Assembly: GCA_947034885.2 (NCBI GenBank)
Contig: OX344749.2
Span: 45,413,682 to 45,477,681 of the forward strand
Origin: Thuidium tamariscinum
Lineage: Eukaryota > Streptophyta > Bryopsida > Hypnales > Thuidiaceae
DNA: 64,000 nt
Direction: 5' to 3'
Under the pieces are notes generated by a model. It was not told the DNA's origin. It did no database searches and was given only the letters and a program-made list of their open reading frames with translations. Below, in pieces: positions 23,498 through 55,987 of this stretch. Position 1 is the first letter of the stretch. Each line of letters starts with the position of its first letter. The position numbers and the translations under genes are program-made.

Positions 23498-24351
23498 CGG
23501 TTCACACAAAACCCTAGCTCCTCAAAACAGAAAGAAAGGAAAAGAAACCGAAACACCAGCTTATTACAGATTTGTGCCCTCAAAAAGATTCTTCAAAAAT
23601 TTGATACATTGCTTGATACCACAGTTCTACGATTCCGCACAAGGTCCCAATCTCGCAATTACTTAATCCATCACCAAATATCACGGAGGTTTGGAAGCTC
23701 TGGGAAAAATATGGCGTGGCTCGAAAGATAAGCAACCCCACGAATGGTCGATATTTGCATCGGGAAAAAGCACGGTACATTGAGGGTACGTACCCCGGGA
23801 GAACGCCGAAGTTCCCCGTCAGACAAGACAATCACTTGCTCCTGAATCTTGTAGAAGTTGCACATGTCTCCCAAAATTGACAAAGAATCATGATTTTGAT
23901 GAAGAATGACATGCTTTGCTTGGGTAGTGGCGAGGAATCCCTTCTTAATAAGTCATTTCTTTGGGGTATCGGATTAATTTCGATACCTAAGATTTATTTC
24001 TGCTGCACCATTACAGACTTGAATGCGTTTCACTCAACCCTCTTCGTTGTGACCTTCAACAACATCCAGCACACATGCCACACTATCATGTCGCACATTA
24101 TAACTGCGTCATTGTTAGAAGTTGGCACCCCAAATGGTACAACAGATGAGGTTTGCTCCGAATCAGGCTAACCTTGGGTTTTAATGGGACTCTCCTTTAT
24201 TATATGCAGTTGTGAAGAACCCTCAACCCGTGAAGAATTCAGGGAGTGTGAAGAGAAACGGAGAAGGAGCTCGTTCTGCTGTGATTCCGGTGGAGTTAAA
24301 GGGAAACAAGATTTTGATCTGCCATTCGATTTTTTTCTAGTTTTGCCTCTT
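23498..24351. other. DNAJC17 3' flank; no supported gene
   Basis: Between the histone-fold fragment and the DNAJC17 stop. A minus-strand frame at about 23671-23883 has ordinary-looking composition but no recognised homology or splice partner. Positions 24168-24351 are probably 3' untranslated. Confidence 0.4.
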
Positions 24352-25489
24352 TTAGCTTGCATTAGCTCCGGGGAGGAGAGGTACTACCAACAGAGGATTA
24401 GAGTACTCTCCACACACATTTTCGGTGGCTTTTACTGCTGCCTGCTTAGTGACCATGACTATCAACGCAGATCGCTTCTTGCGAGACTTCCCTGACTTGA
24501 CCACTAAATCCTCTACAGCACCGAATTCTTCAAAAATTTGTTTTAGTTCAGTTGCCGAGTAATCCCCAGCGCCTCCCTCAAAGCACGTCCACGAAACTTT
24601 AAGTGTCCTTTCTGCATGCGAAGCATCTACATCAGAACTTTGCGGCGGAACCTCAACTCTCTCCGAAGGAACCGTCCCGAAACCGAAAACCGGAGGGTCA
24701 GAATCTCGCTCGCGAGCATCAACACCAGCAGAATTTCCCTGATCGAAAGACGGAGGTATATTGAATTGTCGACCGCGCTTCTTGGATATCCTTGCAATCT
24801 CAGCTTTCAATCGCCTACTCACATCCTCCCCTTCAGATTTGACCTGTCTCTCCCTTTCATATGCTTTCTCTTTCTCAGCTAAATCCCGCATCATCTTCTG
24901 ACGCTTCTCACTCTGCCTGTTTTCTTTCTGCGCCCGCTCCTTTCGAACCCGCTGTAATTCATCATACGAAGCTCGAGCTTTCTCATCACTTAATATATCA
25001 TATGCCTTCTGCAACTTCTGAAACTCAACAGCTGCATCCAAAACATCAAAGGCAAATTATGAGAACAATAATCCTCAACATTCTCACCGACATAAACGCA
25101 AACACGAAACCTAAAATTCGCGTCCGAAATGTTACATCGACAAACCAACTCCATATTACGACGGGAGTCTTTAGGGTTTAGGGTTATGTAAAAAGGTCTG
25201 AGTAAACGCCGATCATGCCTCTCGGTTATCCGATCAATTTAGACTAACCTGTTTTCAGTCCCAAACCTAATTCAATACTTCATAGAGGAGGAGTAAAGAC
25301 AGGGTAAATCAAATAATCTCCAGAAAAAAACACCAGAAAAGAAACAAACGCACCAGCAACAGGATCATCGCCACGCTTATCAGGATGAAGCTCAAGAGCC
25401 CGCTTGCGATAAGCCTTCCTAATGAGCGCGTGCACCACCTGCGGTCCGGACTCTCCCAGCCGCAACACAGCGTACAAGTCCTCTTCCAT
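24352..25489 (-). CDS. DNAJC17: DNAJC17-like J-domain protein with C-terminal RRM
   Basis: DNAJC17 proteins are nuclear Hsp40-type co-chaperones tied to the spliceosome. Two exons, 25354-25489 and 24352-25031, join in phase 1 (donor GTGCGT, acceptor GCAG) to give 271 aa. The J-domain is at 1-75 with LYAVL near the start, the catalytic HPD at 35-37 and AYDILSD at 55-61. A long Lys/Glu/Arg-rich helical region follows (about 75-135). An RRM-like domain starts with RTLKVSW (187-193) and ends NPLLVVPLL. The domain order and length match human DNAJC17 (about 300 aa). The ATG at 25489 is the first in frame and gives the family's usual J-domain start. This start lies in an inverted repeat (separate entry). 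The intron carries a telomere-like TTAGGGTTTAGGG at 25171. Confidence 0.92.
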
Positions 25490-25546
25490 CTCCACACCAA
25501 AACGACGACGCTGTTTTGCTGTGGAGTTGGAAGAGGACTTGTACGC
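25470..25546 (-). promoter_or_regulatory. Inverted repeat folding the DNAJC17 start codon into a hairpin
   Basis: The arm 25470-25495 (first codons and ATG) is the reverse complement of 25521-25546 (upstream DNA) at 25 of 26 positions. The core is GTACAAGTCCTCTTCC against GGAAGAGGACTTGTAC. The 25-base loop is itself partly self-complementary (AAAAC/GTTTT). If transcribed, the leader would pair with the first eight codons and bury the start. An effect on translation is inference. Confidence 0.85.
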
Positions 25547-27417
25547 CGATAGCAAGCGAAAGCAGCCGCTCTCCTACTGTAGGTGAAGACTCCGCTCGCC
25601 CTGGCCCCATATCCGGCAAATCGATCCATACCCGGAACATACTCGGCATACACCCACCATCTGAGACTGTCTATCCCCGGTCCTCGCAGATGAGATTTTT
25701 TTAAAAAATTTTATTCTAAAAATAGTAAAATTCTACAGTACAAGAATTAGGACTTCGGGGCTGCTTGGGAAAATGCAAAATTTTTTTTCCATGCATGATA
25801 AAATTTGCAAATTCTGAATTCATATTTGCAATCAGTGGCTCCAAATTAGTTAAGAGAGATGTACAAGGTAAGTTAATCAAGAACAAATAGGAAACTTTTA
25901 TTTTTACTTGCACCTTTGGAATGACTTAGAGTAGCCAAACTAGGGGACCACTTGATCCCGACCAACTTCCTGTTGCTACACACATCTATGAATGATTGTG
26001 TTGCAAGAAAAATCCAGATGTATCATATTATTCTATTATTTTTCTTTTTAAAAATATTCTATGAAAAATAATGAAAGAAAAGACATAACATTGCAAACAC
26101 ACAAATAGATCAATTTCTCATTTTTTTTCAATCACTAAGAGAGTTTTATAATTCAATTTAGAATAAACCCTCTTCAATATAAATATCATCAATAAAAAAT
26201 TTCTCCCCATAGAAAACAATTTGTGAAAACAATATTCCAAAAAATTGGTAACTTATCTACTATAGTTTTTGTAGATTTTACTTTGCCCCTAATTACAATT
26301 AATTTACAAAAGTTTAATGGCTTACAAAGGTTGTGTGCTCAACAATGACACTGATTCTTAAGCATGTTAAAAGCAACACAAGTTTATTATGTCTTTCTCA
26401 CATTGTCATTAGGGTGTAGAATCTACAACAGGAGGTGAGTTGTCAATTCTAGCATCAAGCTACAAATTCAGCCATTGGATTGTGGATTTCAAAATAATCC
26501 TCTCTTGCATTAAATACTTGAGAACATGCACTTGCTTGTGCATTGTGCCATTCAAGCAATTATACGTCTTGTCTTATCGGGCCCAATCTATAGTTGCTTG
26601 TGTAGTAGAATGTGCAAGCAACTGCTTAGTTTCTAATACAAGAAAGTTAAGCAAGTGAGACTTTCTTTTGAAATTTAGTGATTCACAACAATCACATTTT
26701 TATTGCCCCAAACAAATGAAATTTAGAAACAAGTAGCTATTGCAAATGTCTCTATCCAATCATATAAGGCACTTAAATGAGACAATGAGAGGCACAATGC
26801 TTTATTTTCTATGGTGGCATTGTTTATTTATTTTTAAATACCACTCAAAGATAAATAAAAGAAATGGAGAGAGCAATTGAAATTTTATTTTTTTGGACAA
26901 CATATGAATTTGTTGGGAATTTTTGAAGTGTACTACCTGATTAGCCCTCCCTATCAAAAGAATTTGGACTACCCCAAACTAGCAAAAAATTTATCCATAA
27001 TAGTCATCTTCACTCCTTTAAAGCAATTTCAATATTTTCTTATATGAACACCATATGAAAGGTCTAAAAAAGGTCACTTTTTGTGATGAAATTACACTCA
27101 AAAAGTAGAGGTTCCTATGACATCCACTAATAACTCCAGCAACATATTCTAAAGCATCAATTTTGGCCATTAATTCAACCTAATGTAGTCCAAATCTCAT
27201 TTATTGAAAAAAACATGTTATAGGTTGATGCAAGACTATACTCAATCATTCCCTAGGTACTTGTTATGGATCTTTTGCATATCATAGGTTGGTTTATTTC
27301 TTGTTTTTCATTGAATTTTTTGTTTTAAAGATCAACAACAATTAGATTCTTATTGCCCCTTATAACTATAACTCAAATACAAGTGGCTATTATAAATCTC
27401 TTGACCCTATTATACAG
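25547..27417. other. AT-rich spacer
   Basis: A GC-richer stretch to about 25690 is the likely DNAJC17 promoter. The rest is AT-rich. A diverged direct repeat is visible between about 26680-26770 and 27330-27415 (shared ATTGCCCC and AAGTGGCTAT-like segments). No gene was seen. Confidence 0.4.
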
Positions 27418-28437: not shown

Positions 28438-30821
28438 ACATACACATTTTTCCTTTTATATTAAAATTGCATATAAAATCAAACTCACACTATATGATTA
28501 TTCATCAATACAAAATTTGATTGGGATACATGCAAAATTATAACAACTTTCCAATAGTGAGTACACAATTGGGAGATGCATGAGGTAGAAGATCTCAATG
28601 TAACAAAGAAAAGAAATCAAAATAAACAATCTATCCTAAAGGTATGGATATAAAATATGTTATGTTTTAGTGTATACCAATGATGCGACTTTTGTAACTT
28701 TGGGCTAATTATATACTTGTGCAACGCAAGTTCAAAAATTAGAAAGATAAAATTTTATACCAAAATTATAATGTTATTCTAAATATTTATTTAGCTTGTT
28801 GGAATTTTCAAAATTTTCATTAAAAAAAAAATTCCTAAAATCTCCCATTACATAATATTTGAAGGTAAGAAAGGGCCACTTCAATTTTTTACATTTTTGA
28901 AAAAAAATTGAAACATTAGGTGTACTAAGTTGTTTATTACAACATTACTTTGGAAGGCAACAAAAAATAATTGCATCCCACATATTTTGTAGGATTAAAG
29001 AGAGAATACATTTGTTTCTTCCCTGTATTTTGTATTGTGAACTACACTAAATATGATATTTAGTGTTGGGTTACAATTAGTGTTTTTACCACCCTACCAG
29101 CCGCAACACTAAATCTAAACTGTAGGACAATTAGTGTTGTGTTAAACGTCAATCAGAGTTGTCATATCGGACCGACTGCAAAGTTCAGAGCTCTGTAAAT
29201 TTTGCAAAACATATCATATGTCCGATTCAGATTTGTTTTGCAAAATTTACAGAGCTCTGAACTTTGCAGTAAAAAATTGTCCGATATGACAACTCTGACT
29301 TCAATGCACCACCTCCACTTTCTCTTCTCTTCCCTTCCCATTAATGTGTTCTAACACTAAATGTAAACCTTTTCAGATTTCAGATTTACTATGGAGTACA
29401 TTTAGTGTTTGAATTGACATTTAATGTTACTTACTTTTATAGGGTAATTGGCTTTTAGTGTATGCCTTCGTATTTAGTGTACAAGACACTAAATATCATC
29501 ATTAGTGTAGTGAGTATTATAAGAAATTATAAATTCAAAAAAGTTCAAAAATTAGTAAAAATTAATAAGATATTTTTTAAAATATTGATTTATTAATAGT
29601 ATCTTATATAATAGTGTCTTGACCATATAAGATCATAGATGTAGTGAATTCCCACCATTCAAGAACTCTAAAGAACTTACAAGCTTCTTTAGGCCCAAAA
29701 TTTCTTTTTATGTTACAAACTAAAATGGATTTTGAGAAATTTGGGCATCTAAAATGAAGTGGTAGAATCCATTTTTTCTTCTTCATATTCTTTTGGTGAG
29801 ATTAGGAAAATACAAACTTTAAGGAAATCATGTTTTTAAGAAGATCCAATGGTTGAAAAAAAGTTATGTATTGTTTTTATTTTCAATCCTCAAATGGGTA
29901 AGAAGAAGGCAACATCTATTTGCTTTAAAAAATTTGCACAATTCTTCCAAACTTTAGGCCCTATTCAAAATTTGAAGTATCTAAATGTTTTGTATTGATG
30001 AAAGTGCAATTACATTACATCATATAGTTCATTGCAAATTTTATAAGTTAGATTGATGATGTATGACATATATTAAATCTCCTATGAATATAGGACAACA
30101 ACCCTTCGAAATTGTTGTATAATATAGTTCTTATTCATTTAAAAATGAAACATAATAATTTACATGAAAATAAATTAGGAACTACAAAATACATAAATTA
30201 AAAAAAGGTGAAAAAAAATTCATTTAAATAGCATTAACTCTTAAAAGGACCAAGTTACATTTTTTGGCAACACAACGATTTTTGGCAACATAGCAATTTA
30301 GGGTAGTTCACTATAAATGAAAATTTAATTTTTTTTCTTTGAATTTTCCACAAAAAATGTGGACAAGGTTTTCTCCAAGGCCCAAATAATTTTTATAACT
30401 CTTGACTACATGGTTAAAATCATACTACATAGTATGTATTTTTTTTTCCCCAATAGAACAATCTAAGCAAATTTTTAAAAATCACTTTATTTGTGAAAAA
30501 AAAATTGAAATTGGTTTCATAAATTTAATTATTTGTGGAAAGCTTTAAATTATTGCGTTTTGATTAATGTGATGACAGTTATTAGGAATTGTATATAACT
30601 TTGCGGGGAGTTATAGATTGACTACTCTAAATTAAATTTTGAAGCTTGTTATTTAATTCAATTTGCAATATTTTTGGAATAAAAAATAATTCTAGGATGT
30701 AGATTGTTTATTACAACATTGCAAACATTGGAATTGGAATTTTTTTAATTTCATAACTAATTCCTAACAATTTTACATTTTGAATCAATCTCTACTTCTT
30801 TCCACTTAGCATTTTTTCTTA
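28438..30821. other. AT-rich spacer with a TAGTGT-rich repeat block
   Basis: Positions about 29045-29520 contain many TTAGTGT/ACACTAA motifs with imperfect outer inverted repeats (CTACACTAAATATGATATTT and CTACACTAATGATGATATTT as reverse complement). A perfect palindrome is embedded inside (separate entry). The rest is AT-rich without genes. Confidence 0.45.
29153..29298. repeat. Long hairpin-forming palindrome
   Basis: Two nested perfect arm pairs: 29153-29171 with 29280-29298 (19 bp) and 29176-29210 with 29235-29269 (35 bp), with a loop of about 24 bases. The core is GCAAAGTTCAGAGCTCTG. A transcript would form an almost continuous 54-bp stem. It could be a young MITE, a small-RNA precursor or both. 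Confidence 0.9.
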
Positions 30822-55624: not shown

Positions 55625-55826
55625 TTGTACAAAGTAAATAAACAAATTGAATGGTACATTCCCCAAAAGAGTCACTTGATCTCTAATACACTTCATTGAA
55701 GTCTATATTTTTTGGACAAAGAAGTTTTTAGAATTAAAAAGAATATGAATGGTCACCACAAAATAAAATGCTAAGCTTAGTATTAAAACAAATTTAGAAG
55801 TTATGTACTTAATCATATGATCTTCA

Positions 55827-55984
55827 CACTACAAGAGAATGGGATCTTTTAAGTAGTTTCCTAGACATCATGTCTTTTAAGTAATGTCCTTTAATGCATC
55901 TTTTAAGTAAATTTTTACTTAAAAAACGCATTAAAAGACATGATGTCTAGAAAACTACTTAGAAGACCCCATTCTCTTGTAGTG
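55827..55984. mobile_element. CACTA (CMC/EnSpm)-type MITE with TCA target duplication
   Basis: A 158-bp element with ends CACTACAAGAGAATGGG and CCCATTCTCTTGTAGTG. Complementarity continues through most of both halves (AGACATCATGTCTTTTAA against TTAAAAGACATGATGTCT). It is flanked by TCA at 55824-55826 and 55985-55987. The CACTACAAG tip and 3-bp duplication are diagnostic of CACTA elements. Confidence 0.9.
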
Positions 55985-55987
55985 TCA

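Follow-up and report, generated by a model that had tools for sequence, protein, structure and literature searches.

Template switching is described as a process that creates perfect stems in one event, with mismatches accruing later (Monttinen and Loytynoja 2022, PMC8794818), and template switch mutations are reported to be prevalent in great apes (Walker et al. 2021, PMC7954356). For plants, inverted duplication is a described route to microRNA genes (PMC3237417), and the leader structures called uAUG-ds mostly start no more than 25 nt past an upstream AUG (PMC10499604). These statements hold for the portions of the four reports that we draw on here. We have analyzed a hairpin that covers the start codon of a J-protein gene in a 64-kb stretch of DNA (the window). 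It is a genuine inverted duplication, and mutations of its kind are already known. It predates the duplication of the gene that carries it and is strikingly positioned, while evidence for a maintained function is absent.

The gene lies on the minus strand, as do all of its features given below. Our gene model, in which the splice sites were picked by hand, has two coding exons and an open frame of 271 amino acids. Coding exon 1 spans 25354-25489 (136 nt), and coding exon 2 spans 24352-25031 (680 nt) and contains the end of the J-domain, the RRM and the stop codon. Pfam places DnaJ at residues 4-69 (65.4 bits) and RRM_1 at residues 202-253 (25.8 bits), both above cut-off, i.e., the protein has the N-terminal J-domain and the RRM near the C-terminus of a DNAJC17-like J-protein. 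The name DNAJC17 comes from an earlier, sequence-only reading of the window and is presumably apt, given the DnaJ/RRM architecture. The 13 NCBIfam matches were all under their respective cut-offs, and no solved structure matched at E 1e-10.

The sequence-only reading had described 26-base arms at 25470-25495 and 25521-25546, 25 bases apart and matching at 25 of 26 positions, which is exactly what we find. The inverted repeat is real and lies at that place, and it is longer than reported. A repeat finder gives arms of 34 nt each (25470-25503 and 25513-25546) that are 94% complementary and separated by a 9-nt loop, and the arms reach 36 nt (25468-25503 and 25513-25548) if two extra columns, paired in the inferred ancestor, are added. 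The 26-nt arms are the outer part of the 34-nt arms, and what had been seen as a partly self-complementary loop is the continuation of the stem. In the 36-nt version, the gene-side arm (25468-25503) consists of 14 bases 5' of the ATG and the first 22 coding bases, and would be the source of the copy under the best explanation. It is followed upstream by the loop (25504-25512) and by the upstream arm (25513-25548), which is a reverse-complement copy of the start region. The start codon (25487-25489, read from 25489 to 25487) is within the stem. The coding bases in the gene-side arm number 20 in the 34-nt arm and 22 in the 36-nt arm, which corresponds to six to seven whole codons plus the 14 bases before the ATG, and not to eight codons as first thought.

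Chance was rejected as the origin of the hairpin. In a hairpin scan with loops of up to 60, in which a hairpin passes if its score is at least 18 and its arms are 18 nt or longer and at least 88% complementary, this one scores 28, compared with best scores of 11 to 15 in each of six resampled windows in which first-order base dependence was preserved. The 77-nt RNA is predicted to fold at -57 kcal/mol with a z-score of -13.6, and none of 200 shuffles was equally stable.

In this genome, long hairpins are in themselves nothing unusual. Five hairpins pass the scan in the window, two of them stronger than the one at the J-protein start, and 40 kb elsewhere contain one stronger and one weaker hairpin (four stretches of 10 kb, chosen by hand from a list of 100 random places). 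The hairpin at 29175-29270 has 41-nt arms that are 97.6% complementary, with a loop of 14. At least 144 pieces match it, including the window's own, many of them 96-99% identical over 75 bases and with a second, inverted piece nearby, and it is probably a MITE-like element. The hairpin at 55826-55985 has 55-nt arms that are 94.5% complementary, with a loop of 50. It belongs to a family of at least 80 pieces including the window's own, which besides itself are 77-87% identical and mostly match on both strands, in a palindrome-like manner. In both family searches, 40 candidates were scored. Elsewhere, the RuBisCO large-subunit gene is open on contig C19, and pieces of it at C1:38347545-38348475 and C2:45922033-45922155, one with a TAG inside, look like plastid DNA copied into the nucleus. 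Together with an assembly of 363 Mb in 19 contigs, these RuBisCO sequences point to a plant genome.

The hairpin at the J-protein start was found at two loci in the 363-Mb genome (19 contigs), both of them copies of the J-protein gene, and the genome search found no third locus. Its arm 17-mer occurs exactly at four places, i.e., in both arms at both loci. The second locus, C8a (contig C8 around 17.889 Mb), is 94% identical over 1842 alignment columns to the window's own copy, C1, in a block (23825-25649) that includes the hairpin, and in the scan the C8a hairpin has 29-nt arms and a score of 26. An assembly artefact, which had been raised as a worry, is excluded by this second hairpin, since its mismatches are not those of C1. 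A local array (C8:17885670-17886946) follows downstream of the C8a gene and adjoins another dispersed repeat, and a 298-base stretch of it matches seven overlapping places (itself included), about 160-170 bases apart and 84-92% identical.

Comparison of the two copies shows how the stem has changed since they split. Within a copy, the arms match at 33 of 36 positions in C1 and at 32 of 36 in C8a. When the four arms are aligned, 29 of the 36 positions are the same in all, and the remaining seven are singletons, three private to C1 and four private to C8a, with no shared differences. Since all seven differences are private singletons, the stem was perfect, with 36 of 36 positions complementary, at the C1/C8a split. 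Six of the seven changes since then broke a pair, one turned a G-C into a G-U pair, and none was compensatory. Non-coding arm sites differ between the copies at 6 of 50 positions, against 41 of 846 in the intron and 3' flank (Fisher p 0.04, in the direction of faster change). As the 5' flank also differs at 10 of 86 positions, the whole leader seems to evolve somewhat faster. The upstream arm alone differs at 4 of 36 positions, against 51 of 932 in all non-coding flank and intron (p 0.14). The loop is identical in the two hairpin-bearing copies (0 of 9 positions differ), which says little at such a length. The sequences thus give no sign that the pairing of the arms is under constraint, with the little power that two copies provide. 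The predicted stability of both hairpins is still very high (-60.5 and -53.7 kcal/mol).

An older copy, C8b (C8 around 5.968 Mb), bears on the time of origin. It is 76% identical over a block of 1276 columns and 84% identical over another of 122 columns, and is broken by a frame shift and a TAG stop in the exon-2 match. The upstream arm is absent from C8b: no upstream stretch agrees with the reverse complement of this copy's start region at more than 18 of 36 positions, a level that 21 of 300 shuffles also reached, and the scan gave no hairpin in the 7 kb around this copy. C8b is therefore a related sequence without the inverted copy, yet it is the sole outgroup, diverged and broken, with ambiguous gap edges. 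MAFFT gives the segment missing from C8b as a 27-nt gap at the arm edge, with edges that depend on the method, and single-gap scoring prefers 39 nt for C1 and leaves 27 and 41 nt tied for C8a. The view that the missing segment starts exactly at the arm edge was dropped, since single-gap scoring gives these other lengths.

The upstream region of C1 is common to C1 and C8b. About 200 bases upstream of the J-protein gene (25764-25963) are a dispersed repeat that also occurs upstream of C8b, with at least 48 further pieces, 76-89% identical, besides those of the window and C8b. The upstream flank of C8a (L006:4658-5220) is 79-80% identical to C8:5957554-5958614, about 10 kb upstream of C8b, which in terms of sequence suggests an old segmental duplication within C8. 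Given this match, C1 need not be the source of the C8a copy, and the duplication may have run in either direction.

The explanation that we favor, with a probability of about 0.72, is that one short-range template switch during DNA replication made the hairpin before the gene was duplicated, and that the hairpin now decays neutrally. Close to the gene start, a strand in synthesis would have turned back on itself or switched to the sister strand, used some 30 bases or more of the start region as template, so that their reverse complement was added, and then resumed on its original template. A single step would thus have produced a stem of 36 bp or more without mismatches, closed by a 9-nt loop. 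The gene would then have been duplicated together with its hairpin, giving the copies now on C1 and C8, and ordinary substitutions would since have eroded both hairpins while the reading frame was retained. The perfect ancestral stem, its presence at the two loci found, the private and mostly pair-breaking changes and the armless C8b are observed. How the copy was made and how long it was, where the C8b split falls in this history, that no role was selected, which strand was copied and where exactly the switches lay are inferred. A templated inversion was one of three readings offered earlier, and it is the best supported of them: when C1 and C8a split, the two arms still matched throughout, and the older C8b has no upstream arm. 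Its description as recent holds only in a relative sense, as the event predates a duplication whose copies have diverged by 5.3% at silent sites. With regard to the other two readings, a throttle of translation and a target of small RNA, the sequence argues against selected pairing.

The order of events could have been different. If the hairpin predates the C8b split, C8b would have lost its upstream arm, and template switching would have re-matched the arms in the C1/C8a ancestor. The part of the literature drawn on here describes how template switching can homogenise the arms of imperfect inverted repeats (PMC8604942), and a decayed copy such as C8b could have lost an arm. This course requires two events and not one. 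A rough clock, i.e., a hand estimate from the copy identities with equal rates assumed, predicts about 4-5 arm mismatches by the C1/C8a split for a hairpin older than the C8b split, while 0 are seen, which favors a hairpin that either arose not long before that split or had its arms re-matched at that time. On balance, we regard the older origin as unlikely.

Selection for a hairpin that sequesters the start codon and thereby regulates translation of the J-protein would be compatible with an origin by template switching. The next in-frame Met is residue 92, beyond the J-domain (4-69), and an AUG start for the whole J-domain must therefore be in the stem. If the hairpin is transcribed, it would be expected to impede initiation at this AUG, the only one ahead of the J-domain, or to serve as a source of small RNAs. 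The predicted stability given above fits such a role. With each of the six tested 5' ends that lie at -50 or beyond, the predicted pairing probability is 0.985 or more for the U and the G of the AUG. However, the A of the C1 AUG is unpaired, in a mismatch, in the folds with these 5' ends. With a 5' end at -40, the U and G are predicted to be unpaired with a probability of 0.15 to 0.17. Leaders whose 5' ends are at -20 to -30 cannot form the long stem, and in them the A and U are mostly paired in another predicted structure (unpaired 0.10 to 0.14), with the G mostly free.

The hairpin and the protein are both kept in the two copies. The frame is retained in C1 and C8a with a pN/pS of 0.39 (13 non-synonymous and 10 synonymous differences; Fisher p 0.04), which suggests that the protein has been made despite the hairpin. 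Against selection for pairing stand the lack of compensatory changes, the breaking of pairs by six of the seven substitutions since the duplication, the lack of any reduction in arm divergence, and the armless C8b, though C8b is broken. A throttle of translation or a small-RNA target, as the sequence-only reading proposed, is physically possible, while selected pairing is what the substitutions speak against, and we consider a selected throttle rather improbable. Additionally, several upstream frames are open in both C1 and C8a, with alignment gaps of 7, 3 and 5 that shift the frame between the copies. One of them starts at an upstream AUG and covers 25422-25649 (minus strand; 76 codons, with the stop just beyond), overlapping the main frame out of phase. 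It could be used only if transcription begins upstream of it.

It is doubtful that the upstream arm yields small RNAs complementary to the parent mRNAs around their start, as in the inverted-duplication model, although this too would be compatible with a template-switch origin. Hairpins of this length and near-perfect pairing suit Dicer processing. The stem also matches microRNA models below threshold, and these we take to be animal ones; the best is mir-788 at 36.4 bits (E 1e-6), where 90 are needed. Inverted duplication as a route to plant microRNA genes, cited at the outset, lends the idea some support, and in maize miRNA-like structures in genes and transposable elements are reported, in the portion of the study considered, to correlate with small RNAs (PMC10760457). 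However, Rfam gave no family at gathering score over 25300-25700, and a known RNA family was rejected for that interval; the 11 weak matches at E up to 10 are of a kind that may arise from any long hairpin. Six arm strings were absent from the main text of the papers in an open-licence library, and a search of the same library for DNAJC17 with plant and miRNA gave nothing relevant, its only match being on sturgeon breeding. The decay of the arms shows no bias towards pairing either. To our knowledge, no small RNA from this hairpin has been described.

A bolder combination of these ideas is a long shot: one replication error would have made a ready-made self-silencing switch, in which the only AUG before the J-domain is hidden in two paralogous mRNAs and antisense small RNAs act on both. 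If true, a microRNA gene would have been born inside the very gene that it targets. Least credible of all is that the hairpin is all or part of a miniature inverted-repeat transposable element. In favor of this, the window's two stronger hairpins belong to multi-copy families. Against it, this one was found at only two loci genome-wide, both in copies of the J-protein gene, and one of its arms is gene sequence with the start codon. A transposable element was rejected on copy number.

With a template-switch origin as the preferred reading, the locus is a clear case of a long perfect hairpin that arose over a start codon, probably in one mutation, survived in two copies and is decaying. New regulatory hairpins and small RNAs could evolve from cases like this one, and with the C1/C8a pair one can test directly if it makes a difference that a start codon lies under a strong hairpin.

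Among the known systems, the likeness to uAUG-ds is that upstream AUGs, provided that they are transcribed, are followed by a strong hairpin. Here, however, the base of the stem is at -59, while the closest of these AUGs lies at -121 in C1 and at -106 in C8a, i.e., further away than the roughly 25 nt of that class, and the main AUG is inside the stem. The inverted-duplication model (PMC3237417), in the form in which we draw on it, shares with our locus an inverted copy of gene sequence and a hairpin arm antisense to the gene. Our hairpin differs in that it sits in the start region of the gene itself and not at a separate locus. The closest agreement is with the hairpins created by template switching (PMC8794818, PMC7954356): as in the portions of those reports used here, a reverse-complement copy lies a few bases from its source, and the stem was born perfect and acquired its mismatches later. 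While the cases in those portions concern mammalian microRNAs, rRNA genes and great-ape genomes, the J-protein hairpin lies over the start codon of a protein-coding plant gene, and hairpin and gene were later duplicated together.
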